From Aneurinibacillus soli (GTDB lineage Bacteria > Bacillota > Bacilli > Aneurinibacillales > Aneurinibacillaceae): DNA of 64,000 nt. Both the position numbers and the translations under genes were made by a program. Of the stretch, positions 1 to 10,099 are shown piece by piece (within the stretch, counting starts at the first letter, position 1; each line of letters opens with the position of its first letter). The stretch is taken from assembly GCF_002355375.1 (NCBI RefSeq), contig NZ_AP017312.1:3785001-3849000 (forward strand), read 5' to 3'. The notes under the pieces were generated by a model. It was not told the origin of the DNA. It saw nothing but the letters and a program-made list of their open reading frames with translations, and made no database searches.

Positions 1-517
1 CCGAGAAAAAGCCGATCGCTGCAATTCCTGTATAAACTCCTCCATACACAAGCGCACCGGAAGCAACAAGCAACAGAAACATCAACGGATCGTACCAGGC
101 AACATCAAGTCCCATATTGGCCCCTGCATACACCATAATGACAATGCCCGTCACCGCCCCGACAAGCGACTGCGGGTCCATCGTTTCGAGCATAACTTGA
201 AACAAATTATGGGCAGGTCGCGTCAGAACCCGGTCCATCTCCCCGCGAATGATGTATTTCTCCTGAAACTCCCACAGATTGAAAAACGTCGTAAATACAG
301 CATACGGAACCAGGAAGAAACCATAAATAAAAATAATTTCATCGCGCGTCCAACCTTTGAGCACACTCGTATGTTGGAACACAACAAGAATAAAAATCAA
401 ATTCGTTGCCTGAAACACAAAATCCGATACGATTCCGTTCACAAAATCCATCCGATACGCCAGACGCATCTTGAAATACTGCTTCAAATAATCCCAGAAC
501 AGCGATAAATAAAACAT
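1..517 (-). CDS. ABC-2 family (DUF990-type) transporter permease, partial
   Basis: This gene runs off the left edge, so only its first 172 codons are visible. The protein begins MFYLSLFWDYLKQYFKMR and continues with alternating hydrophobic segments (roughly residues 30-50, 65-85, 120-140 and 145-165). That is typical of the integral membrane subunits of DUF990/ABC2_membrane_6 exporters. The ATG at 517 has an AGGAGAT ribosome binding site. The partner permease and ATPase lie at 8305-10099 on the same strand, but about 7.8 kb of unrelated DNA now separates them. By family analogy it should form the second membrane subunit of that exporter. The substrate is unknown. Confidence 0.85.
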   Translation of the reverse strand, partial: MFYLSLFWDYLKQYFKMRLAYRMDFVNGIVSDFVFQATNLIFILVVFQHTSVLKGWTRDEIIFIYGFFLVPYAVFTTFFNLWEFQEKYIIRGEMDRVLTRPAHNLFQVMLETMDPQSLVGAVTGIVIMVYAGANMGLDVAWYDPLMFLLLVASGALVYGGVYTGIAAIGFFS

Positions 518-575
518 GAACAGATCTCCTTTCGTTTATCATTGTTATGCTTTCTTTTACCGAAGTCAACATGCG

Positions 576-612
576 AAACCCCGGTCCGCTGTAGCAGACC
601 GGGGTTTTATTT
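576..612 (-). terminator. Rho-independent terminator of the SLH protein gene
   Basis: A ten-base-pair stem, AACCCCGGTC paired with GACCGGGGTT, is followed by a T-run on the minus strand. It lies directly after the stop codon of the S-layer-homology gene and before the partial permease. Confidence 0.85.
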
Positions 613-1743
613 TTATTTGATGCCGAGTTTTTCGAGAAGCTGTTTCGTGGCGAACAACTGAATGTCCGATGTATAAATCCGCCATTCGTTTGTTGTCGGA
701 TCTTTTTTCAGCATAACTACCCCTTTGAATTTCTCAACAGCCTTCCATTCCTCTCCATCTTTTTTAGCAGTAAGCGTATATTCAGCACCGTCCACTTCTA
801 CAAGTGCAATTCGGTTCCATTTACCAAGAACTTTTTCCGTCAATTCCCCTGTTCGGCTGATACTCACTTCATATCCCTGTTCTTTGGCCTTACGTAATAG
901 AAGAACTTCTACATTTTGAAGCGCCTTATAGTAGCCTGCATAACGTGCGTCAACAATTTCTTTCAGACGATTTGGGTCCACCGCAAGCAGTGCACGACTC
1001 CGCTCCTCTTCGATCGTCTTGACGAGGTCAAGAAGTGCCTTATCTGTCGGTACCGCATTTTCTTCTAAATATAGAGCATTATATAACATCGTCATCGCTT
1101 CGGCGCGTGTGGCATATTCAAATGGCTTGAATACATTTCCCTTATAACCACTAATGACTCCTGCTCGACTCGCCTTATCAATCTCTCGGCTAGCCCAGTA
1201 TGTGTTTCCTACATCTTTAAAATGCCTGGTCGTTCCTTCATCAAATGCAATCGTATACGCAAATGCCCGTACAAGCAAAGCTGCAATCTCGCCACGCGTA
1301 ATATACCGCTCCGGTCCAAACGATGATTCCGTAGTCCCGCTTACAATCCCAAGCGAGCTCGCAATTGTAACTGAATTGTAGTACCATTCACTCGAATCTA
1401 CATCTGAAAAGCTTTTCGGCTCACGATCCGGGGACTTTTTCAGTCCGAGCGTCTTTACGAGCAACTCCACGAACTCAGCCCGGGTGATTTTGCGATCAGG
1501 CCGAACGGTTACCGTGCCGCTAGCATCTGTGTAGCCATTTACATATCCGGCATGTACCATATCATAGACTTTGTTGCGCGCCCAATGCTTTGCAATATCT
1601 TCTGGAAGATAGCTATCCAGTACCTGTAACTCTTTTGTTTCATGCTGCGGGGCGGCAGATACAGGAGTTATTACACCTGTTCCAAGTACTGCACCTGCAG
1701 TCATAGCTATTCCCCATTTTTTCACAGTCCGTTGTATGTCCAT
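613..1743 (-). CDS. S-layer homology (SLH) domain-containing protein
   Basis: This is a 376-residue exported protein. It has a Sec-type signal peptide (residues 1-30, charged start, hydrophobic core, cleavage near VSAAP). Three SLH repeats follow at about residues 45-105, 108-165 and 170-230, each with the ITRAE or similar core (KITRAEFVELL, YITRGEIAALL, YATRAEAMTML). SLH triplets bind pyruvylated secondary cell wall polymer, so the protein should be anchored to the wall. The C-terminal 140 residues (about 235-376) do not match a family I recognise. It is monocistronic, with its own terminator, inside the foreign block that splits the ABC exporter operon. Confidence 0.88.
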   Translation of the reverse strand: MDIQRTVKKWGIAMTAGAVLGTGVITPVSAAPQHETKELQVLDSYLPEDIAKHWARNKVYDMVHAGYVNGYTDASGTVTVRPDRKITRAEFVELLVKTLGLKKSPDREPKSFSDVDSSEWYYNSVTIASSLGIVSGTTESSFGPERYITRGEIAALLVRAFAYTIAFDEGTTRHFKDVGNTYWASREIDKASRAGVISGYKGNVFKPFEYATRAEAMTMLYNALYLEENAVPTDKALLDLVKTIEEERSRALLAVDPNRLKEIVDARYAGYYKALQNVEVLLLRKAKEQGYEVSISRTGELTEKVLGKWNRIALVEVDGAEYTLTAKKDGEEWKAVEKFKGVVMLKKDPTTNEWRIYTSDIQLFATKQLLEKLGIK

Positions 1744-1976
1744 ATTTCCATTGTTCCTTTCTTGAAATCCCAGCGCCTGTACGCAGTATCTGGAAGGAAG
1801 AAACTCTAGTTCCTACAATATCCATAGTTATAAAGGCGGTATGTAAAATTAACCTCATGCTATGTTCTATTGTAAAAGATACTCGAATATGGAACTATGG
1901 TTATATTTTAGTAATAAAATTTGATTTTTTTTAATTTATAGGATCATTTAACCACCCTGCCTAAACAAAGGAGTGT

Positions 1977-2582
1977 CTAGGCAATCATTTCGTAAATGCC
2001 AATCAAAAATAATAAAACACCACCTATGATCCCTGAGTATTTCCCAAACCATGTACGTGCCATTACATATCCCACCTTAGAGCCAAAGCCAATAAAAATG
2101 AGGGAAAACAAACCAGCAAACATTGTTGTAAGTAACGGAGATACATTAGTCGCACCTGCACCGATCCCAATTGCTATATTGTTCATTGCCAATGCTACAC
2201 CTAACGCGACGGATTCCTTCATCGAAATGATATTATTTTTGTCAACATCAGCAGCATACGGATTTCGAATCGGATCACCTGAAGTCTCCTGGTGTGAAAC
2301 AAGAGTCTCTGCTCCGCCTTTCCGCCAATTATCTATAATTGTCCAAAGACCAATACCGGAAATCAACATCGCTCCTAGAAGATTAGCCACAAACTCCGAC
2401 ATATAGAAAGCCATAATCTCCCCGATTGTCATAGACAAATACGTGCCTACCATCGTAATCAAAGCAATAATGAAATTCGACATAATCGGTATCCTTGTAG
2501 AACGTACTCCAAAAGCAAGCCCGATTGCCAAATTATCCAAGTTAGACGCAAACGCAATCGCTAACACTGAAAGCCAATGCAT
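1977..2582 (-). CDS. MntP/YtaF-type manganese efflux or sporulation membrane protein
   Basis: The protein has 201 residues with about six membrane segments. The pair of related halves typical of MntP/YtaF is visible: an Asp-containing helix near the start (SNLDNLAIGLAFG) and a matching Asn-rich helix in the second half (LAMNNIAIGIGAGATN). MntP exports Mn(II); YtaF is the sporulation-associated branch. I cannot separate them by eye, although the Asn-rich second motif and the spore-forming host fit YtaF. I chose the ATG at 2582 because GGGAGGG lies five bases upstream. A longer reading from 2627 has no such site. Confidence 0.75.
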   Translation of the reverse strand: MHWLSVLAIAFASNLDNLAIGLAFGVRSTRIPIMSNFIIALITMVGTYLSMTIGEIMAFYMSEFVANLLGAMLISGIGLWTIIDNWRKGGAETLVSHQETSGDPIRNPYAADVDKNNIISMKESVALGVALAMNNIAIGIGAGATNVSPLLTTMFAGLFSLIFIGFGSKVGYVMARTWFGKYSGIIGGVLLFLIGIYEMIA

Positions 2583-2699
2583 GAAAACCCTCCCTTTCTG
2601 CTTACTAAACATTCGCCTATCTAACAATATGTAATAACTTGAAAATCAGTGCCGGTAGTACATTAAATTTAGCGAAAGAAGCAAGCTACACTGTTAGAC

Positions 2700-2743
2700 A
2701 AATAAAAACAACCGACCCGTCTCCAAGTCAGTTGTTTTTATTT
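2700..2743. terminator. Bidirectional terminator-like hairpin
   Basis: An imperfect inverted repeat (ATAAAAACAACCGAC and GTCAGTTGTTTTTAT) has A/T tracts on both sides. It abuts the left end of the IS4-type relic. It resembles the hairpins that follow the dif-like sites further right, but no dif-like site is recognisable next to it. Confidence 0.5.
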
Positions 2744-3417
2744 ACTCAACTTTCGCAGAGCGATAAGTTATGGAAATCCTTACTTTATAAGGGATAGGTA
2801 CAATTCCGCTGAAATATGAGCTGAAAGTCGAAAGAGGATTCGATCTTATTGGTATGGTAAAAGCAGATAAAAAGCACTATCAAGTGGGAGAACAACGCTT
2901 ATCCTTACAGGAACTTTACTATGTTGCAACGCCAATCTAAGGAAATAATAAAGGAATTCTACGTTCTGTTCACGCTCAATTAGCGGGAATTCCGATTACC
3001 ATGGTATTTGTTCGCCACCGTTCTAAGAAAAAAGAATGGCTGGCTATTTTGTGTACAGACTTATTTCTAACAGAAGAAGAAATTATTGAAACTTACGGGA
3101 TCCGCTGGGATATTGAAGTCTTCTTCAAATGCACGAAATCTTTGTTGCGCTTGCAAAAAGAGTTCCATGGGCGGTCGTACGACTTGCTTGTTAGTCATAC
3201 CACGATTGTATTTTCTCGGTATATTGTATTGGCTTGGCAGAACCGCCAAAGTACCGATCGACGTACATTGGGTGGTTTATTTCTTGCGCTTTGCGAGAAA
3301 GTCCAATAAGAAGATCGCAAAATTGATTCAAAGTCAACTTCAACAATGGATTTCGACTTTGCCTAGCTACATCGAGGCTTACTTGCCTGACTTAGGCTGC
3401 GAAAGTTTAGTAAATAA
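2738..3417 (+). mobile_element. IS4-family insertion sequence relic
   Basis: This is a 680-bp degenerate element bounded by near-perfect terminal inverted repeats. The left end at 2738-2758 reads TTATTTACTCAACTTTCGCAG. The right end at 3397-3417 reads as its reverse complement with one mismatch. Full-length IS4-type elements are about twice this size, so the 5' half of the transposase has been lost. It marks the left border of the small-gene cassette array. Confidence 0.85.
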
Positions 3418-3421
3418 CTAA
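2811..3421 (+). pseudogene. IS4-family transposase, C-terminal fragment, broken
   Basis: The reading frame carries the C-terminal part of an IS4-type DDE transposase. This includes the diagnostic Y-(2)-R-(3)-E-(6)-K signature in YGIRWDIEVFFKCTK at about 3092-3136. The frame is interrupted by a TAA at 2938-2940. Near 3300 it jumps to another frame (ESNKKIAKLIQSQLQQW), implying a small internal deletion. The N-terminal half, with the first catalytic Asp residues, is missing. The element cannot move on its own. Confidence 0.85.
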
Positions 3422-3450
3422 TGCCAGTCCTTATTTAAGGCTGGCATTAG
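3418..3450 (-). terminator. Terminator hairpin of the first cassette gene
   Basis: The inverted repeat CTAATGCCAG / CTGGCATTAG lies across the stop codon of the 3431-3718 gene. It corresponds in position to the hairpins that follow dif-like sites elsewhere in the array. Here the expected site would fall under the right end of the IS4 relic and is not visible. Confidence 0.6.
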
Positions 3451-3718
3451 CTTTACGAAATAAATATATTAATAAATCCAGTAAGAACCCATATAAAAAA
3501 GCTAGAGTGATATGCAATACATATCCTAAAGGGAGGATGCGACGAGTTACTTCATCAAAAATTAAGCTGCGGAAAGACTCTGTGTAAATAGCCTTAAACA
3601 TAATTGGCTCTATCCCTCCTGAAAAGAATAAAAGATGCTTATCATCGTTCCCTACATAGTCATTGATACAAATAACTAGGCTCGCAATAACAAACCAAAA
3701 TGCAAATTTTTTAAACAT
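3431..3718 (-). CDS. Small membrane protein of unknown function (cassette 1)
   Basis: The protein has 95 residues with two predicted membrane segments (about residues 4-22 and 66-88) and a polar loop between them. I do not recognise a family. The ATG at 3718 has a strong AAAGGAGTG site. The upstream ATG at 3739 has none. It is the leftmost gene of the array, between the IS4 relic and the first dif-like site. Confidence 0.6.
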   Translation of the reverse strand: MFKKFAFWFVIASLVICINDYVGNDDKHLLFFSGGIEPIMFKAIYTESFRSLIFDEVTRRILPLGYVLHITLAFLYGFLLDLLIYLFRKANASLK

Positions 3719-3761
3719 GCTCGCACTCCTTTTCCTCATTTCACCACGCAGGAAGGTGATT

Positions 3762-3789
3762 ATGTCCGGTAATCCCGGTTACGTTAACT
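3762..3789 (+). repeat. dif-like site 1
   Basis: Left 11-bp arm ATGTCCGGTAA, 6-bp spacer TCCCGG, right 11-bp arm TTACGTTAACT. The layout is the same as a Xer site, where the XerC arm ends in TAA and the XerD arm begins with TTA. The right arm differs from the dif-type TTATGTTAACT at one base. An A-tract and a hairpin follow at once. Confidence 0.75.
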
Positions 3790-3797
3790 GAAAAAAA

Positions 3798-3830
3798 CAA
3801 AGAGCCAATACCTCTAAGCATTAGCTCTTT
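3798..3830 (-). terminator. Hairpin after dif-like site 1; terminator of the DUF5316 gene
   Basis: The stem AGAGCCAAT / ATTAGCTCT is followed on the minus strand by a long T-run. It ends transcription of the DUF5316-type gene just upstream (3856-4152). Confidence 0.75.
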
Positions 3831-3855
3831 ATAGTTCGTTATGTTTTATAAAAGG

Positions 3856-4152
3856 TTACAACGTTGGTTTAACTACGTAGGCATAAATAATAATGCATGC
3901 AGCAAGGTTTATAGCACCAATAAGTAAAAGATGCCATCCCCAATTCATTCGCATTTTCCAATCTTCTTTATCCGAATAATTTGCCCGGATTCGATCGCCA
4001 CTCCCATCTGCTCCTGAAACCACAGCAGCTAAGGCTAAGAAAGCACCGCCTGTATAGCCTGCATACTTCATAGCCAATGCATAATCTTGAGTAACAGCGA
4101 AAATGAATAGTAGGATAATAAAGCCTATACCTATCGAAATTAGAGATTTCAT
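3856..4152 (-). CDS. DUF5316 family membrane protein (cassette 2)
   Basis: This 98-residue protein has three hydrophobic segments (about residues 5-22, 28-48 and 74-94). The central conserved stretch SGDRIRANYSDKED is what I recognise from DUF5316 proteins of Bacilli. The function is unknown. The ATG at 4152 has a GAGGGGGAAAG site. The gene sits alone between dif-like sites 1 and 2, with about 100 bp of AT-rich upstream DNA for its own promoter. Confidence 0.7.
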   Translation of the reverse strand: MKSLISIGIGFIILLFIFAVTQDYALAMKYAGYTGGAFLALAAVVSGADGSGDRIRANYSDKEDWKMRMNWGWHLLLIGAINLAACIIIYAYVVKPTL

Positions 4153-4249
4153 TTTCTTTCCCCCTCGTTTATTTAAGTAAAATTATTTCACTTAAATAAC
4201 TGAAATAAAAGGAAATAATATTACATTTTTATGGAAATTAAATCTTTTA

Positions 4250-4277
4250 ACGTCCGATAATTCACAGAATGTAAACA
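4250..4277 (+). repeat. dif-like site 2
   Basis: Left arm ACGTCCGATAA, spacer TTCACA, right arm GAATGTAAACA. The left arm matches the Bacillota dif arm ACTTCCTATAA at 9 of 11 positions. The right arm is the GAATGTAAACA variant also seen at site 8. The last bases of the arm belong to the following hairpin. Confidence 0.75.
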
Positions 4278-4305
4278 AGCCACCTTAAGTTAAGTGACTT
4301 GTTTT
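4273..4305. terminator. Hairpin overlapping dif-like site 2
   Basis: The stem AAACAAGCCAC / GTGACTTGTTT (one mismatch) begins inside the right arm of the site and ends in a T-run on the plus strand. It lies just after the stop of the 35-codon gene on the minus strand. Confidence 0.7.
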
Positions 4306-4311
4306 TCTCTT

Positions 4312-4419
4312 TTATTTTCTTAGTTTTTTAATCAAAAGGTATACGATATAAAATAAAGCACAGGTAAAGACGATGGCACCAACCTGAAAAATAGCTGTCA
4401 TCATACTGAATTCTTTCAT
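4312..4419 (-). CDS. 35-residue single-pass membrane peptide (cassette 3)
   Basis: The product begins MKEFSMMTAIFQVGAIVF, continues through one hydrophobic helix and ends in a basic tail, KKLRK. Its ATG (4419-4417) overlaps the TGA of the zinc-ribbon gene upstream in an ATGA arrangement. That implies translational coupling and a shared role with that protein. No family is recognised. The coupling is the main support that this short frame is real. Confidence 0.55.
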   Translation of the reverse strand: MKEFSMMTAIFQVGAIVFTCALFYIVYLLIKKLRK

Positions 4420-4769
4420 TGATACTCTCCCTTTTGAAGTGGAGTACCACAATGTGCGCAAAAATTGGCGCTCCGTTTATTCGTAGAATTACATTTTGGG
4501 CAGTGAATCTCTTCTCCTAATCCTTCTTGTAATCCCTGTCCCATTAGTTTCATTGAATCGCGGATTATATCACCATTTCGTTTTAACCAATAGCGCTGGA
4601 TATGGGGGCCAAGTAGAACGAATCCAAAAAATATAAGTGGCATACCGACAAAGGGAAGCCAAGAGAATCTCGGTATTTCCCACATGTCTAAAGTAAAGAA
4701 TTCAAACATTGAACTTACTAAACAAATAATGCCGACTGCCATCATACCTACTCCGAATGTTTTGCTCAT
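4416..4769 (-). CDS. Membrane protein with C-terminal zinc ribbon (cassette 3)
   Basis: The protein has 117 residues. Two membrane helices lie at about residues 8-25 and 38-55, followed by a cytoplasmic linker. At the C terminus is a zinc ribbon, CPKC-(10)-CAHC (residues 90-107). The ATG at 4769 has a perfect TTAGGAGGGTG site. It is the larger gene of a two-gene cassette between dif-like sites 2 and 3. The function is unknown; a membrane-anchored zinc ribbon suggests a scaffold or sensor, but this is inference. Confidence 0.75.
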   Translation of the reverse strand: MSKTFGVGMMAVGIICLVSSMFEFFTLDMWEIPRFSWLPFVGMPLIFFGFVLLGPHIQRYWLKRNGDIIRDSMKLMGQGLQEGLGEEIHCPKCNSTNKRSANFCAHCGTPLQKGEYQ

Positions 4770-4845
4770 ACACCCTCCTAAAAATTATCATTTGAATAAA
4801 TTAGCAGAAATAATAAGCATTAACTTCCGATTTCAAACCATTAAA

Positions 4846-4873
4846 ATATCCGATAATGTCGCTTATATAAAAA
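4846..4873 (+). repeat. dif-like site 3
   Basis: Left arm ATATCCGATAA, spacer TGTCGC, right arm TTATATAAAAA. This is the only site without a convincing hairpin immediately to its right. An A-tract and the next gene (plus strand) follow instead. Confidence 0.65.
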
Positions 4874-4945
4874 AAGGGGAATAGCTACTTGTAAAGAAAT
4901 CTGTTTTGTAGATTTTATCAAGGTAGTATTATGCCAACGGGGTGA

Positions 4946-5143
4946 ATGGTGTTGGGGAAAATATGTCCTAAATGCGAAACTGGACAAAAACGTGCTCACG
5001 TTGAAGGGATGCACGGAATGTTCGCTTTATCATTGAAAAAGAATAACTTTTTAGTTAGCACTACTAATTCAGTTGAAGTGATACCGTATGTTTGTCCAAA
5101 GTGCGGTTATGTAGAGTTCTATGCTTATGGGATTGAAGAATAA
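4946..5143 (+). CDS. Small zinc-ribbon protein (cassette 4)
   Basis: The protein has 65 residues with two CxxC knuckles, CPKC near residue 7 and CPKC near residue 50. Together they form a four-cysteine zinc ribbon around a hydrophobic core. It resembles the small nucleic-acid-binding-like zinc-ribbon proteins of Bacilli, but no specific function follows. GGGGTG precedes the ATG closely; the TTG two codons later (4952) is an alternative start with better spacing. It is one of only two plus-strand genes in the array. Confidence 0.65.
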   Translation: MVLGKICPKCETGQKRAHVEGMHGMFALSLKKNNFLVSTTNSVEVIPYVCPKCGYVEFYAYGIEE

Positions 5144-5162
5144 TTAAGAGGTAATATAAATA

Positions 5163-5190
5163 AAGTCCGGTAACCTCCGTTATGTAAGAA
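5163..5190 (+). repeat. dif-like site 4
   Basis: Left arm AAGTCCGGTAA, spacer CCTCCG, right arm TTATGTAAGAA. It lies 20 bp after the stop codon of the plus-strand zinc-ribbon gene. Confidence 0.75.
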
Positions 5191-5222
5191 GTAACTCCCT
5201 GACCCATGGGAGCTGCTTTTAT
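5188..5222 (-). terminator. Hairpin after dif-like site 4
   Basis: The stem AGTAACTCCC / GGGAGCTGCT (one mismatch) begins at the right arm of the site. It is placed to terminate the minus-strand genes of the next module. Confidence 0.6.
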
Positions 5223-5225
5223 GTT

Positions 5226-5340
5226 TTAGTTTTGAATTTGATGAGTTTGTATTGAGATATCACTTTTATATTTATAAAATGCCCAAATTCCTAAAATGGA
5301 GAAAAATACACCAAGTACAACAATAACGCTCTAAGCTGGT
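5226..5340 (-). pseudogene. Remnant of a small membrane protein (cassette 5)
   Basis: The frame encodes a hydrophobic helix (VIVVLGVFFSILGIWAFY) and a polar tail ending at a TAA at 5226. There is no credible start or ribosome binding site. In-frame stops separate it from the 49-codon frame upstream, which is in the same phase. It reads like the decayed end of a gene. Confidence is low. Confidence 0.35.
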
Positions 5341-5429
5341 TTGTTTACTTTTAGGGGTCTCGCCGCATGTAAGAATAAAAGATACCCTATATAGCTTAAC
5401 TATGTTAAATTCCCAAATTATAAATACAG

Positions 5430-5579
5430 TTACTTTGCTGCCGGTGACAACACTCCCGCCACTACTCCTATAAGAATAAAAATCATTGCAAGACCCATGA
5501 AAATCATTGTTATACATATAACTTTAAGCCAGAAACGATTCCATCCATCGGGTGAAACACCATATTTCCCAAAAATCAT
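5430..5579 (-). CDS. 49-residue membrane peptide or gene fragment (cassette 5)
   Basis: The frame starts MIFGKYGVSPDGWNRFW and contains one long hydrophobic helix. No ribosome binding site precedes the ATG, and the same frame continues beyond three stops into the remnant at 5226-5340. It may therefore be the intact front of a degraded gene of about 117 codons. I do not recognise the family. Confidence 0.35.
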   Translation of the reverse strand: MIFGKYGVSPDGWNRFWLKVICITMIFMGLAMIFILIGVVAGVLSPAAK

Positions 5580-5597
5580 ATAAGAGGGCGTACTTTT

Positions 5598-5711
5598 TTA
5601 AAATATGCTTAACTTTTCATTTACCTTATCTAGACTTTTCAATCCACTTATACCAATTGGTATAAGTAAAATAAAAATAATAGTAAGTAATATCTGACCT
5701 TTAGGTATCAT
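5598..5711 (-). CDS. 37-residue single-pass membrane peptide (cassette 5)
   Basis: The product begins MIPKGQILLTIIFILLIP and has one hydrophobic helix and a charged tail (KSLDKVNEKL). The ATG at 5711 follows a good GAGGGAG site, which is the main support. It is the first gene of the module between dif-like sites 4 and 5. No family is recognised. Confidence 0.5.
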   Translation of the reverse strand: MIPKGQILLTIIFILLIPIGISGLKSLDKVNEKLSIF

Positions 5712-5799
5712 TATTCTCCCTCGTTTTACTCTTTTCAAAAAATTGTACATAGAAATTTCTTAATAAAACAGCAAGAGAATTTTACAATTCTTACATTCA

Positions 5800-5827
5800 A
5801 CGTCCGATAACCTCAGTTACGGAAACT
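5800..5827 (+). repeat. dif-like site 5
   Basis: Left arm ACGTCCGATAA, spacer CCTCAG, right arm TTACGGAAACT. The final ACT of the right arm is already the first part of the hairpin stem that follows. Confidence 0.75.
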
Positions 5828-5854
5828 AGCCACTTCTAAAATACAGTGGCTAGT
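5825..5854 (-). terminator. Hairpin overlapping dif-like site 5
   Basis: The perfect nine-base stem ACTAGCCAC / GTGGCTAGT begins inside the right arm of site 5 and overlaps the stop codon of the 5850-6125 gene. The arrangement packs site, terminator and gene end into about 55 bp. Confidence 0.7.
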
Positions 5855-6125
5855 CAACATGAATCTGTGAAAGTGAATATAAAACAAGAAAGAAAACTAC
5901 CAAAAAAATAATGATATAAGTTTGTCTATCTTTGCCTAAGATTTCTGAAATAAAAGTGCCGACTATGGCGGATAATGTAAAGCTACTAATCCCTCGTAGT
6001 AGGTTCATTATGTATTCCTTTGTTGTGATTTCTGTAGTTGTAATCGTTTGAGGGATAACTAACGCCATGATTAACATTCCTAAAGCAAAGCCATATATTC
6101 CTGATTTAACTAACCTTTTTTCCAA
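5850..6125 (-). CDS. Small membrane protein of unknown function (cassette 6)
   Basis: The protein has 91 residues with three hydrophobic segments (about residues 8-26, 42-62 and 70-86). It begins with a TTG at 6125; the AGGTGGTGATC stretch a few bases upstream is an adequate ribosome binding site. It is the only gene between dif-like sites 5 and 6. No family is recognised. Confidence 0.6.
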   Translation of the reverse strand: MEKRLVKSGIYGFALGMLIMALVIPQTITTTEITTKEYIMNLLRGISSFTLSAIVGTFISEILGKDRQTYIIIFLVVFFLVLYSLSQIHVD

Positions 6126-6181
6126 AAGATCACCACCTACCCTTACTATATATTACCATAAAATTCGCTTTTAGGTGGTGT

Positions 6182-6209
6182 ACGTCCGATAATTTCACTT
6201 ATGTAAAAA
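6182..6209 (+). repeat. dif-like site 6
   Basis: Left arm ACGTCCGATAA, spacer TTTCAC, right arm TTATGTAAAAA. This is one of the closest matches in the array to a canonical Bacillota dif site (left arm 9/11, right arm 9/11 against TTATGTAAACT). Confidence 0.8.
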
Positions 6210-6241
6210 GCAGCTCTCTTGTATAGACCAGGGAGCTGCTT
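6207..6241. terminator. Hairpin after dif-like site 6
   Basis: A perfect ten-base stem, AAAGCAGCTC / GAGCTGCTTT, begins at the last bases of the right arm. No minus-strand gene ends here, so in this module the hairpin travels with the site and not with an obvious gene end. Confidence 0.65.
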
Positions 6242-6361
6242 TATTCTTAAAGTTGGCAACAAGACACCTATAAGGGAATTAACATCTCCCTCTCATCATG
6301 AGTAAAATAAAGGAAACTAACTTCTCTTCTGCACGTTTAGTTTGAGAAGGGGGGATTTATT

Positions 6362-6532
6362 TTGAAATCTATTCGAGTGTTAAGGTTTCTTCTTCTGGCA
6401 CTAGCTATTGTTACTTTAGTCAATATAGTCTTCATACATAGTGACTCCATTGTTTTTGCTGTTATAGAAATGATTGTCTATACAACAGCTTTTTTAATTT
6501 TAATTGTAACTCTCTTTACGCCGGATAAATAA
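6362..6532 (+). CDS. 56-residue two-helix membrane protein (cassette 7)
   Basis: The product begins (TTG)KSIRVLRFLLLALAIV and has two hydrophobic helices (about residues 5-25 and 30-52) and the tail TPDK. A run of G residues (AAGGGGGGAT) lies at the right distance from the TTG start. It is the second plus-strand gene in the array and lies alone between sites 6 and 7. No family is recognised. Confidence 0.5.
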   Translation: MKSIRVLRFLLLALAIVTLVNIVFIHSDSIVFAVIEMIVYTTAFLILIVTLFTPDK

Positions 6533-6565
6533 CTTTAATCTGGAAAAGAATTGTTCGTACAAATT

Positions 6566-6593
6566 ACCTCCGATAACCCCAGTTATCCTAGTG
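6566..6593 (+). repeat. dif-like site 7 (right arm diverged)
   Basis: Left arm ACCTCCGATAA, spacer CCCCAG, right arm TTATCCTAGTG. Only the first half of the right arm keeps the XerD-type sequence. The rest has become part of a perfect hairpin stem. The site may be inactive. Confidence 0.6.
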
Positions 6594-6620
6594 AATCAGT
6601 ATAACTGCTTAGGATAACTA
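6581..6620 (-). terminator. Hairpin overlapping dif-like site 7
   Basis: The perfect stem AGTTATCCTA / TAGGATAACT includes most of the right arm of site 7. It lies downstream of the 29-codon minus-strand gene. Confidence 0.55.
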
Positions 6621-6648
6621 CTTTTACTTTAGAATCTTAAATGGTTAA

Positions 6649-6738
6649 TCATTTCCACACTATAGACGTTGCTAGTACGATAGAAAGTATAACGAATACA
6701 AAAATGATGCTTGTAAACCATATAATAACCCTTTTCAT
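6649..6738 (-). CDS. 29-residue membrane peptide (cassette 8)
   Basis: The product begins MKRVIIWFTSIIFVFV, one hydrophobic helix after a short basic start. AGAGGCGG directly precedes the ATG at 6738. It is the only frame in the module between sites 7 and 8 with a ribosome binding site. Such short frames can arise by chance, so confidence is moderate to low. Confidence 0.4.
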   Translation of the reverse strand: MKRVIIWFTSIIFVFVILSIVLATSIVWK

Positions 6739-6783
6739 CCGCCTCTCTTTTTTTACTTATTTTAACAAAAAAAAAAAGACGGA

Positions 6784-6811
6784 GCATCCGATAATCTGCA
6801 GAATGTAAACA
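6784..6811 (+). repeat. dif-like site 8
   Basis: Left arm GCATCCGATAA, spacer TCTGCA, right arm GAATGTAAACA. From the end of the spacer into the hairpin it shares the 17-base stretch CAGAATGTAAACAAGCC with site 2, which lies 2.5 kb away. Confidence 0.75.
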
Positions 6812-6840
6812 AGCCGTTCCTTATTTAGAACGGCTTTCAG
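6810..6840 (-). terminator. Hairpin after dif-like site 8; terminator of the DUF3139 gene
   Basis: The perfect stem AAGCCGTTC / GAACGGCTT begins at the end of the right arm of site 8 and abuts the stop codon of the 6843-7154 gene. Confidence 0.7.
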
Positions 6841-6842
6841 CT

Positions 6843-7154
6843 TTATTTTTTGTGTTTTTTAGCATCGCCACTATATCCACTTTGGTTTACAAAGTTTTTA
6901 TTTTTATCATTCCAGCCATAATAATAGCGGGCTTCTGACTCGTCTTTAAAAATTACCTCAGAATCATACTTATATGGCAAAACCCCTGTCATAAAGTCAT
7001 ACCTAGATTTAATAGATGAAATGTCCTCTTTTTTATAACCTTCTTGCTGTAGTTTCCAAGTTGTAGCAGCGATAATTTCATCTCGCTCGATACTCTCTCC
7101 GGCAGTGAACTTGTATATACTTAATCGAATGATAACAAGCAAGAGAACGATCAA
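6843..7154 (-). CDS. DUF3139 family protein (cassette 9)
   Basis: The protein has about 103 residues, with an N-terminal membrane helix and an extracytoplasmic domain. The latter resembles DUF3139 (IKSRYDFMTGVLPYKYDSEVIFKDE, ending GYSGDAKKHKK). The function is unknown. The TTG at 7154 has no ribosome binding site. The reading frame continues upstream to a GGGGGG site at about 7190, but only ATA/ATT codons lie at the right distance. Either a non-standard start is used or the original ATG has been lost. It is the last module before the IS1634 relic. Confidence 0.6.
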   Translation of the reverse strand: MIVLLLVIIRLSIYKFTAGESIERDEIIAATTWKLQQEGYKKEDISSIKSRYDFMTGVLPYKYDSEVIFKDESEARYYYGWNDKNKNFVNQSGYSGDAKKHKK

Positions 7155-7223
7155 TAAAGATAGAATAAAAATTCGTTTTATTATATGTATTCCCCCCTTT
7201 TTATTTTCCTTATTTTATCATAT

Positions 7224-8235
7224 AACTCACATTCCGCACCCCTAGCTCTCTAAAAATGGGCCATTTCCGTGTATGTTAGAATCATTGATTACAGACTAAA
7301 GGAGCGGAAATCAATGATTCAAATCGAAGGCATCTATCAGGCTAACTATTTACACATCCTAAGCGCCATTATGGATGACTTGAAACTCACCCAACAAATG
7401 GACCACTGGTTTGAGAGAGCTACGGAGCATGAAGGTCATGCATTGTCTGAAAGATGCGGAAGCGGCGTGGGACACATGGGTAGAAAATCAAAAGCTTCGG
7501 TTTCATCATGTATCTGGCTTGATCACCGAACAGGAAGTCGTTCGTAAGGAACGTGGACGTCCGAAGCAGGACGCTCAACCAGAGACGGATACGTTGTATG
7601 TGTTAAACCTGATTTATACAGAAGAGGAGGCGTTAGTTCAACAAGCGAGGCGGAAAGCTTCCCGGTTTGTGTTAGCTACGACACTCCCAAAGGAGTGGCA
7701 TAACGAATTGATGGATGGGACAGCCGTACTTGGACTGTACAAGGGATAGATTCATATCGAGATGAATTTTTCATTTTTAAAAGATCCTGTCTATACGGAT
7801 GAAATCTACCTAAAGAAGCCTGAGCGTGTAAAGGTACTTGGCTACCTGTTTCTCCTTGCACTTACCGTGTACCGGGTATTTCAACGCCGCATTCGCCAGC
7901 ACATTACCGAGCAACAACCGATGCGTGGAGCCGGAGGCCGCATTCTAAAAAAGCCAACGGGAGAAGCCATTTTTCACATTTTCAAATATCTACAAGTTGT
8001 CGTATTACGAGGTACAAACGGAACACGAATCCGCCAATTTGATCAGTCGTTAACGAAAGAACAAAGACGTGTATTAACTTCCCTCGATCTAGACGAATCG
8101 ATTTATCTTGGATAGTTGCATACTTTCTACAGCGATGGTTATCTACGGAAAATAGCCATCGCTTGTTGTCGTCTCTTCTCAAATGCTTTCAAAATTCACC
8201 TTCTGCCCTCATACGGAGGGTGTGAAATGTGAGTT
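7224..8235 (+). mobile_element. IS1634-family insertion sequence relic
   Basis: This is a 1.0-kb remnant bounded by inverted repeats. The left end at 7224-7241 is AACTCACATTCCGCACCC. The right end at 8218-8235 is its reverse complement with two mismatches. Intact IS1634 elements are almost twice as long, so an internal deletion has removed much of the transposase. It forms the right border of the cassette array. Confidence 0.85.
7314..8115 (+). pseudogene. IS1634-family transposase, deleted and frameshifted
   Basis: The intact start (ATG 7314, AAAGGAG upstream) encodes an IS1634-like N terminus (MIQIEGIYQANYLHILSAI). After about 35 codons an internal deletion joins it, out of frame, to the C-terminal part of the transposase (7430-7749). 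That part ends at a TAG at 7747, replacing what is probably a CAG codon. The C terminus resumes at 7750 in the same frame and runs to 8115. It is non-functional. Confidence 0.85.
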
Positions 8236-8248
8236 CTAAAGAGAAAAA

Positions 8249-8288
8249 GAAGAGAGAAATCCTTATATATCAAGGCTTTTCTCTCTTC
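8249..8288 (-). terminator. Terminator of the ABC permease gene
   Basis: The stem GAAGAGAGAAA / TTTCTCTCTTC is followed by a T-run on the minus strand, just after the permease stop codon. It would stop transcription of the ATPase-permease pair before the distant second permease at 1-517. Confidence 0.75.
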
Positions 8289-8304
8289 ACAAAAATCCAT
8301 ATGG

Positions 8305-9099
8305 TTATCCACCCTGTATGATCACATTTCGTCTAGCCTGCCACCACATTAGAGAAATCGGAATCAGAAGTGCCACCACCCATACACTCTGAATGAACAA
8401 TGCATGATAAAGCTTCTCTCCGGTTAATACACCTGTAAATATGACACCTGGCACGTAGCTGATCGCCTGAAACGGAAGATACTGCAAAATATGCTGCGCC
8501 CACAACGGATAAAAGCTAATCGGCAGAATTAAACCAGAGAACAGGTCCACAATAACCCGCTTGGCGTGCATTAGCCCTTCATTGTTATAAAAGAAAAACG
8601 TCAACAGCCCAGTAATCAGGTTAATCTGGGTGTTGATAATAAAACTGAATACAAGACTAACTGCATACCAGCTCCAGATCAAAACATCGGACGGAAAGCT
8701 GATCGGAAAGATAAAACTGACAATGACCATGCCTGGAATCGAGAAGAACAACAATCGGAAAATCCCTTCTCCAAGCCCCTGCATCATTTTGACAACCAGA
8801 TAGTTATAAGGTCGAATCATTTCAATAGCCACTTTGCCTTCTTTAATGTCCTGCGCCATCTCCCGGTCAATGTTATTGAAGTAAAATGCACGAGCCATCC
8901 AGCTAATCGCCACATACGTCACCATCTGATGCGCGGTCAACCCGCCCATCGTAGGCTGTCCACCATAAATCGCGTTCCACAGAAAGTAATATGCGCCGAT
9001 ATTGATCGCATAAATAATGATGCCGCTGTAGTAATTCACACGGTACGCCAGCATCGTCAAAAACCGGATGCGGATGATTTCCGCATACATGCTAAACAT
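8305..9099 (-). CDS. ABC-2 family (DUF990-type) transporter permease
   Basis: The protein has 264 residues with about six membrane segments. It is of the ABC2_membrane_6 type found in two-permease exporters, and the cytoplasmic turn with EGKVAIEMIRPYNY is typical. I chose the ATG at 9099 because it overlaps the ATPase stop by 8 bp and is preceded by GGAAGGGATC. The longer frame extends into the ATPase gene. It forms a complex with the ATPase at 9092-10099, and probably with the permease at 1-517. The substrate is unknown. Confidence 0.88.
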   Translation of the reverse strand: MFSMYAEIIRIRFLTMLAYRVNYYSGIIIYAINIGAYYFLWNAIYGGQPTMGGLTAHQMVTYVAISWMARAFYFNNIDREMAQDIKEGKVAIEMIRPYNYLVVKMMQGLGEGIFRLLFFSIPGMVIVSFIFPISFPSDVLIWSWYAVSLVFSFIINTQINLITGLLTFFFYNNEGLMHAKRVIVDLFSGLILPISFYPLWAQHILQYLPFQAISYVPGVIFTGVLTGEKLYHALFIQSVWVVALLIPISLMWWQARRNVIIQGG

Positions 9100-10099
9100 G
9101 ATTGATCCCTTCCTGATAAATATTGCGCACAATTTCCTCCGTACTGACAGCTTCAATGGAGATATCTTTTACTTCATAGTGCGGAATAATCCGAGCCAGC
9201 AGATCCGATACGGCCAGATCCCCTTCGCTAATCAGAGCGTGGAATCGCACATCATTTTCTTTTTCCCACACAACGGGCAGCGGTCCGGTTAACTGCTGCA
9301 ATCGCACAACATCCGCCGGGTGAACGAATTCCATCACAATCCGCTTTTGATCTCCCCATGTTGTCCGAAGCTCATTCAGCCCGCCATCATAAATAATCTT
9401 GCCACTATCAAGCATCACAACGCGGGAAGACAACGCTTCAATGTCAGACAGATCATGGGTGGTGAGCAGAATCGTTGTTCCGTACGTTTCGTTCATTTCT
9501 TTCAGGAAATCACGGATGTTCAGTTTTACGAGTACATCAAGCCCGATCGTCGGCTCATCAAGAAACAAGAGCGGCGGATTATGAATCAAGGCTGCCGCTA
9601 ATTCACAGCGCATCCGCTGGCCAAGACTGAGCTTACGTACCGGCTTCGTCAGCAATTCATCAATATTCAGTACATCAATGACATGCCCCATATGTTTTTT
9701 GTACTGCTCATCTGGGATGCGATATACCTTTTTGAGTAGGCTGAATGATTCTTGTACAGCAATATCCCACCAGAGCTGGCTACGCTGGCCAAACACGACC
9801 CCAATCGTCTGCACGAATTTCTCCCGTTCCCGGTGAGGGTCCATGCCATTTACACGCAAGTACCCAGATGTCGGCATGAGAATCCCGGTGAGCATTTTGA
9901 TCGTAGTCGATTTTCCAGCTCCATTCTCCCCGATGTAGCCGACAATCTCACCGGGTTCAATCTGTAGATCAATGCCGTCCACCGCCCGCATCGTTTTATA
10001 TTGACGGTTAAACAAATCACGGAACGCCCCGGAGAGACCCGGACGGCTTGTATATGATTTAAACTCTTTTGTCAGTCCTTTGCTTTCAATTCGTAACAT
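9092..10099 (-). CDS. ABC transporter ATP-binding protein
   Basis: The 335-residue ATPase drives the DUF990-type exporter. Visible motifs are Walker A (GENGAGKST, about residue 57), the signature LSLGQRMR, Walker B LLFLDEPTIGLD and the switch His in LLTTHDLSD. A C-terminal extension after about residue 250 is typical of this subfamily. The ATG at 10099 is preceded by AAAGGGAG; an upstream ATG at 10144 has no such site. It is the first gene of the operon. Confidence 0.93.
   Translation of the reverse strand: MLRIESKGLTKEFKSYTSRPGLSGAFRDLFNRQYKTMRAVDGIDLQIEPGEIVGYIGENGAGKSTTIKMLTGILMPTSGYLRVNGMDPHREREKFVQTIGVVFGQRSQLWWDIAVQESFSLLKKVYRIPDEQYKKHMGHVIDVLNIDELLTKPVRKLSLGQRMRCELAAALIHNPPLLFLDEPTIGLDVLVKLNIRDFLKEMNETYGTTILLTTHDLSDIEALSSRVVMLDSGKIIYDGGLNELRTTWGDQKRIVMEFVHPADVVRLQQLTGPLPVVWEKENDVRFHALISEGDLAVSDLLARIIPHYEVKDISIEAVSTEEIVRNIYQEGINHV

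Follow-up and report, generated by a model that had tools for sequence, protein, structure and literature searches.

Within a 64,000 nt stretch of the chromosome of Aneurinibacillus soli (GCF_002355375.1, contig NZ_AP017312.1, positions 3,785,001-3,849,000 of the forward strand; hereafter the window, position 1 being its first letter), eight sequences resembling dif, the site of chromosome dimer resolution, follow each other within 3.05 kb, with small genes between them. We consider that this region is probably an array of small-gene cassettes bordered by Xer recombination sites, with the host proteins XerC and XerD as the likeliest enzymes. This view is based on sequence comparison, namely on site-bounded units, breakpoints inside the sites, head-to-tail order and dif-like arms. 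From it we infer XerC/XerD as the enzymes, circular intermediates, any activity that may continue and the possible advantage to the cell.

The sites were scored with a matrix built from 30 sites of this genome and of its relatives G001, G007 and G010, and a sequence model was built likewise. No score of 13 or above occurred in 1 Mb of random sequence, while array sites score about 23-40. All eight window sites lie head-to-tail on the + strand, at the positions at which an earlier reading of the sequence alone (the sequence-only reading) had placed them, and the distances of 218-637 bp between them were borne out as well:

3762-3789, + strand: dif-like site 1, ATGTCCGGTAA-TCCCGG-TTACGTTAACT; matrix score 28.2
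4250-4277, + strand: dif-like site 2, ACGTCCGATAA-TTCACA-GAATGTAAACA; matrix score 34.2
4846-4873, + strand: dif-like site 3, ATATCCGATAA-TGTCGC-TTATATAAAAA; matrix score 34.5
5163-5190, + strand: dif-like site 4, AAGTCCGGTAA-CCTCCG-TTATGTAAGAA; matrix score 31.5; spacer 5/6 identical to site 5
5800-5827, + strand: dif-like site 5, ACGTCCGATAA-CCTCAG-TTACGGAAACT; matrix score 35.1
6182-6209, + strand: dif-like site 6, ACGTCCGATAA-TTTCAC-TTATGTAAAAA; matrix score 38.6
6566-6593, + strand: dif-like site 7, ACCTCCGATAA-CCCCAG-TTATCCTAGTG; matrix score 8.4; right arm 5/11
6784-6811, + strand: dif-like site 8, GCATCCGATAA-TCTGCA-GAATGTAAACA; matrix score 33.5

Seven of the eight sites are 28 bp long, with 11-bp arms showing the inner inverted symmetry ATAA...TTAT and a 6-bp centre. 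The 11-6-11 layout of dif, previously ascribed to all eight, applies to these seven but fails at the right arm of site 6566. This site has a good left arm, a degenerate right (XerD-type) arm and a score of 8.4 versus 28-39 for the others, and is probably inactive or a half-site. Since it counts as a left half-site only, we regard seven sites as solid.

The core pattern TCCGRTAA-N7-TAYGTAAAC was scanned with up to 3 mismatches over the window and the genome. It matched 7 times in the 64 kb (0.46 expected; 0 of 100 shuffles reached 7), each time on the same strand and inside the 3.05 kb. In the whole genome (4,116,770 bases) the best matches comprised five array sites and, outside the array, TCCGATAATATATATTATGTTAAC at 2,579,501. 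With the sequence model, 9 matches were obtained genome-wide at E<=0.05, 7 of them forming the window array and one more being the true dif. A scatter of the repeats over the whole genome, which the sequence-only reading had named as an argument against its cassette idea, was not found: strong sites are confined to the array and the true dif, the only other strong site in the 4.1-Mb genome.

The dif of this genome reads TTGTCCGATAA-TATATA-TTATGTTAACT and is located near C1:2579498 (C1 is this genome's contig). We took TCCGATAATATATATTATGTTAAC as the true dif because it recurs in most related genomes and lies near the antipode of dnaA on the 4.12-Mb circle (dnaA at 353 kb, distance 2.23 Mb). 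The array is 1.21 Mb away from dif, and its distance to dnaA is about 0.7 Mb. The dif sequence in other Bacillota is AACGTCCGATAA-TATACA-TTATGTAAACTAA, and in other families of the phylum the model found almost exclusively single dif sites, e.g., AACGTCCGATAATATACATTATGTAAACTAA.

Outside the spacer the array consensus is close to Bacillota dif, outer bases included, and the proposed comparison with the true dif confirmed dif-like arms but differing spacers. Array spacers lean to T, C/A, T, C/T, C/A, A/G rather than TATATA. In the window none equals the dif spacer and no two are identical to each other, the best matches being 5163/5800 and 5800/6566 (each 5/6). A left-arm match to ACTTCCTATAA at 9 of 11 positions had been noted; the host left arm TTGTCCGATAA fits the array's CCGATAA better. 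The complete match reported for the right arm stands insofar as the consensus is dif-like, but, taken singly, the right arms share only 8-9 of 11 positions with TTATGTAAACT. The array thus shares its arm consensus with the XerCD dimer resolution site of Bacillota but is not the true dif, as it has many copies, lies away from the terminus, lacks TATATA-like spacers and is linked to gene units.

Exchange at the sites in related genomes

The family was sampled with 11 Aneurinibacillaceae genomes, one per species. A search of related Bacillota, as suggested earlier, did reveal clustered dif-like sites in several genomes of this family: clusters are present in A. soli, G010, G007 and G005, a looser one in G001, and scattered sites in G003. 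G010 is Aneurinibacillus sp. Ricciae_BoGa-3 (NZ_CP116887.1, complete chromosome) and carries loose arrays. The nearest relative, G006 (complete), has dif only and no array sites. No such clusters turned up in about 780 other Bacillota genomes: in surveys of 399 genomes from the class and 398 from the phylum, none outside the family had more than two matches at E<=0.002, with strict filters that arrays of weak sites would escape.

Three pairs of units demonstrated the recurrence of whole site-to-site segments. L066:6527-7593 and L069:3048-4110 are 97% identical inside (1,060 bp), L066:6053-6527 and L066:7593-8058 are 90% identical (468 bp), and L066:6053-6527 and L095:9734-9267 are 87% identical (468 bp). 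The flanks of all three were at random level on both sides (0.38-0.52; random 0.49). Two of the three pairs represent the same cassette type, and the pairs are therefore not fully independent. At single-base level, pairs with a common left neighbour agree throughout the left arm and part in the spacer, and pairs with a common right neighbour agree from roughly the fourth spacer base on. This places the exchange in the spacer, on the side of the XerC-type arm. Units alike inside and unrelated outside, with a breakpoint close to where left arm and spacer meet, are the mark that site-specific recombination leaves. These alignments make a location of the exchange inside the site clear; as to which strand exchanges first, the XerC-side location in a handful of events is only suggestive.

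Ends of repeats also accumulated at the sites. At the array loci of the family, 29 of 416 distinct repeat ends fell within 18 bp of a site, versus 4.6 with global shuffling or 8.2 with local shifting, and the maximum in 2000 shuffles was 20. Two G010 loci at 1.98 and 3.60 Mb, 1.6 Mb apart, share several blocks in different order. The possibility that changes never occur at the sites, raised by the sequence-only reading against itself, did not hold, as breakpoints fall inside dif-like sites. Its idea of cassettes is supported in that dif-like sites border exchangeable units whose copies change inside the sites, but the exchanges were seen in the arrays of relatives: gene units bounded by Xer-type sites in different contexts were found there and not in the window array. 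Window site 6182 together with its hairpin is 84% identical over 84 bp to a G007 site (L068:9492-9575).

Uniform orientation and an attached hairpin are common to the family: in 30 of 32 pairs, neighbouring sites up to 3 kb apart have the same orientation, and folding is stronger to the right of sites than to the left (mean z -2.3 vs -0.8, paired p=1.4e-4, 62 sites). Two units consist of site, hairpin and site without a gene, the sites being 69 bp apart (L088:6915-7014 and L097:6277-6376). A site subfamily with a right arm ending in GGTAAAC or similar recurs in three species (L084:13896, L084:16245, L089:2457 and L098:4600), followed in most cases by a conserved AAAACCCG...CGGGTTTT hairpin. 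The site-linked genes at the G010 and G007 loci include gerPA/gerPF-like, DUF2642 and YjcZ-like genes, which, judged by their Pfam families, are putatively of spore type.

A pattern scan of the genomes of about 85,000 species gave, among the matches listed, mostly single dif-like sites in other phyla and with other spacers, such as a single Myxococcus site, not an array, reading AACGTCCGATAA-CATGCG-TTATGTAAACTAA. A Myxococcales metagenome-assembled genome (CALENB010000301.1) has two identical dif-like sites with spacer CGAGTG 7.1 kb apart (L149:111 and L149:7223). Viral contigs with the pattern had single sites, except for one on which another, weaker site was present. On a contig that is also catalogued as viral in IMG/VR (G199:C7:88846; L306, of equal length), a second dif-like site has the spacer GAAAGC and is possibly a Xer-type attachment site.

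Genes, hairpins and setting of the window array

The units of the window and their edges contain the following features:

2745-3421, + strand: transposase-like remnant at the left edge, broken frames, outside the cassettes; recognised by eye
3431-3718, - strand: small membrane-type protein, 95 amino acids (aa), leftmost cassette gene; no Pfam match
3797-3832, - strand: terminator-like hairpin right of site 1
3856-4152, - strand: DUF5316 protein, 98 aa; Pfam, E 2.7e-22
4273-4304: hairpin overlapping the end of site 2
4312-4419, - strand: short hydrophobic open reading frame (ORF), about 35 aa, at the end of the zinc-ribbon gene; no Pfam match
4416-4769, - strand: protein with C-terminal zinc ribbon, 117 aa
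4949-5143, + strand: zinc-ribbon-like protein, 64 aa, opposite orientation; CxxC motifs
5187-5220: hairpin right of site 4
5430-5579, - strand: hydrophobic ORF, 49 aa
5598-5711, - strand: hydrophobic ORF, 37 aa
5825-5854: hairpin right of site 5; folding z -4.1
5850-6125, - strand: hydrophobic protein, 91 aa; weak relative beside a double site in G005 (L097)
6207-6242: hairpin right of site 6; folding z -5.9
6362-6532, + strand: hydrophobic protein, 56 aa
6581-6619: inverted repeat AGTTATCCTA/TAGGATAACT overlapping the degenerate right arm of site 7
6811-6836, - strand: terminator-like hairpin right of site 8
6843-7154, - strand: DUF3139 protein, 103 aa, rightmost cassette gene; Pfam, E 1.3e-9
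7250-8190, + strand: transposase-like remnant at the right edge, broken frames; recognised by eye

The cassette genes encode small hydrophobic or zinc-ribbon proteins (DUF5316, DUF3139). Except for 4949-5143 and 6362-6532, the candidate genes run towards hairpin and site, and in two cases the A-rich end of the right arm was seen to form the T run of the terminator on the strand of the gene. From gene direction and terminator the order of a unit is therefore gene, terminator, site, like an integron cassette with its attC. Matches to consensus promoters in the window were at the level expected from shuffled sequence, and cassette promoters were not demonstrated. The small genes in the window intervals had no match to a phage family in Pfam, and no known RNA family (Rfam) was found in the array region. 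DUF5316 homologues occur in three relatives with no strong site nearby. A plasmid origin was rejected, as neither the array DNA nor the DUF5316 cassette protein had a match in PLSDB (72,556 plasmids), and a viral origin was rejected, as this protein had no relative in IMG/VR.

The array occupies a slot between mntP and an ABC permease gene. In G006 this slot is filled with other genes and has no dif-like site; a clean empty site could not be read there because transposase-like remnants edge the array. G007, G008 and G010 have an uninterrupted ABC transporter operon (ATPase, permease, permease). This operon is split in A. soli (window 1-9156) and in several others (L279-L287) by a gene with an S-layer domain and the slot, the cargo of which differs from species to species. 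Among the 11 species sampled, the array is specific to this lineage.

Enzymes, mechanism and rival explanations

The XerC gene at C1:1768168 and the XerD gene at C1:3227106 are over the TIGR02224 and TIGR02225 cut-offs, respectively. Neither is near the array, and relatives of both are found in all 11 family genomes. No recombinase gene lies beside the window array among those located in this genome, and a dedicated recombinase adjoining it was therefore rejected. XerC and XerD are likely the enzymes acting at the array sites; they are the simplest choice because of the dif-like arms and because no other candidate enzyme is shared.

A third full-length Xer-like protein (C1:2310009-2310851; L103, L267) is close to XerC/XerD and under both cut-offs; it is unique to this genome. 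In G007 (C42:38636-39446, 271 aa) and G008 (C3:119169-120269, fragments) a Xer-like ORF lies about 220-280 bp from the true dif, which suggests an integrated element using dif. G010 has at least 7 copies of paired large tyrosine recombinase genes (353 and 644 aa), reminiscent of Tn554-type elements.

A unit would typically comprise one or two small genes, a hairpin terminator and then the site, the gene usually pointing to hairpin and site. As all sites have the same orientation, recombination between two of them would excise the intervening DNA as a circle with one site. This circle could insert at another compatible site on the same or another molecule. XerC and XerD, which normally act at dif in chromosome dimer resolution, would exchange strands on the left-arm (XerC-type) side of the 6-bp spacer. 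The left arm would thus stay with the left neighbour, and the right arm with the last part of the spacer would stay with the right neighbour. Within the window, 5163 and 5800, with 5/6 spacer bases in common, are the best candidates for excision.

Several observations weigh against this interpretation. FtsK activation of XerD is not expected 1.21 Mb from dif. Some of the right arms of the window sites are weak, and the window cassettes are not shared with relatives at the DNA level, except for short site-plus-hairpin matches. For Xer recombination the spacers must usually be identical, or nearly so (PMC13141974, PMC11705084), and those of the window agree in 5/6 bases at most. In a test in E. 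coli, plasmid sites of A. baumannii did not excise even as direct repeats with equal spacers, while molecules did exchange DNA with each other (PMC11705084). Because these direct repeats failed to excise, intermolecular exchange followed by a second exchange may be the real route.

A different tyrosine recombinase acting in trans, rather than XerC/XerD, might recognise the sites of otherwise real cassettes. The third Xer-like protein, the further Xer-like and paired tyrosine recombinases of relatives, and non-dif spacers that could mark the sites of another enzyme are in line with this. We nevertheless consider it unlikely: none of the ten other genomes, some of which bear arrays, encodes the third protein, no recombinase of A. 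soli is near the window array, and the arm consensus matches dif including the bases outside the core.

It appears quite improbable that site plus hairpin is a self-spreading dispersed repeat or terminator that serves as a hot spot of homologous recombination, with no site-specific recombination. The hairpin can indeed be kept while the gene beyond it is not (L060:11308 vs L060:18173; window 6182 vs L068), the double sites 69 bp apart have only a hairpin between them (L088, L097), and array regions are rich in insertion sequences. The breakpoints, however, are sharply placed in the spacer region, a stretch of about 30 bp with diverging spacers is unlikely to sustain homologous recombination, and such a repeat would need an accidental resemblance to both dif arms.

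We give very little weight to the view that the sites are scars of successive integrations by phages or other integrative mobile elements exploiting Xer (IMEX) instead of cassette borders. Two relatives (G007:C42, G008:C3) do have Xer-like genes next to their true dif, but the array is 1.21 Mb from dif, its spacers are not the dif spacer, the genes in the window intervals are all small and match no phage family, and entire units from one site to the next are found repeatedly. Small-gene arrays that carry a recombination site at the 3' end do recall integron cassettes, but a mobile integron whose attC sites have degenerated can practically be dismissed, since no integron integrase was over the cut-off in the 11 family genomes, the sites have the 11-6-11 dif architecture, and the hairpin is adjacent to the site and does not constitute it.

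Within the interpretation as Xer-bordered cassettes, we tentatively propose, as a possibility that falls somewhat short of being probable, an integron-like capture system on the chromosomes of Aneurinibacillaceae. In this system the housekeeping XerC/XerD would insert and excise single terminator-tagged cassettes, which encode small proteins of membrane and spore type, at a family of dif-like sites whose spacers are relaxed, by exchange on the XerC side. As the array is far from dif, it would probably work without FtsK.

Relation to known systems

The closest known system is that of the Acinetobacter dif (pdif) modules (PMC13141974, PMC6449649, PMC12907356), described as a characteristic feature of that genus (PMC6449649). 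The lack of a described chromosomal equivalent, as stated in the sequence-only reading, applies to Bacillota, for which the searched literature (covering few subscription papers) contained none, but not in general, since chromosomal 'dif module islands' were reported in Acinetobacter sp. M10 in 2026 (PMC12907356). The dif modules and the M10 islands also have 28-bp Xer sites of 11-6-11 layout with conserved arms and variable spacers. These sites bound accessory units, the content varies among replicons, and breakpoints are at the sites. There too it is mostly the centre that sets the extra sites apart from the main dif (PMC6449649). In contrast to the array in Bacillota, they belong to Pseudomonadota, and their sites are inversely oriented, with C modules alternating with D modules, whereas 30/32 pairs are direct here and all eight window sites are on one strand. 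They are located on Rep_3/OrfX plasmids or matching islands, while the array is chromosomal and had no carrier in PLSDB. A hairpin terminator is attached to the site only here, and the window units hold one or two very small genes.

Chromosomal (sedentary) integrons have tandem small-gene cassettes as well, with one site each at the gene's 3' end, a largely uniform orientation and mostly unknown or membrane-type genes. The array differs from them as no IntI was over the TIGR02249 cut-off (0/11 family genomes) and as its sites appear, by alignment, to be dif-type duplex sites of 11-6-11 layout, not attC. IMEX such as the CTX phage would likewise use host Xer recombinases on sites with non-identical centres (PMC5357621, PMC4246890), but the window array has many consecutive sites and small-gene cargo, with no phage genes seen.

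If our interpretation is true, Xer-borne gene capture would have evolved or spread beyond Acinetobacter and could do without a dedicated integrase. The array makes the tolerance of Xer for divergent spacers and Xer action far from dif without FtsK testable, and since the arms resemble those of the host dif, there are already known candidate enzymes for immediate testing. The array works like the Acinetobacter dif modules and like integron cassette arrays, yet because of its direct orientation, the lack of a link to Rep_3 plasmids and the lack of IntI it is a member of neither as defined.

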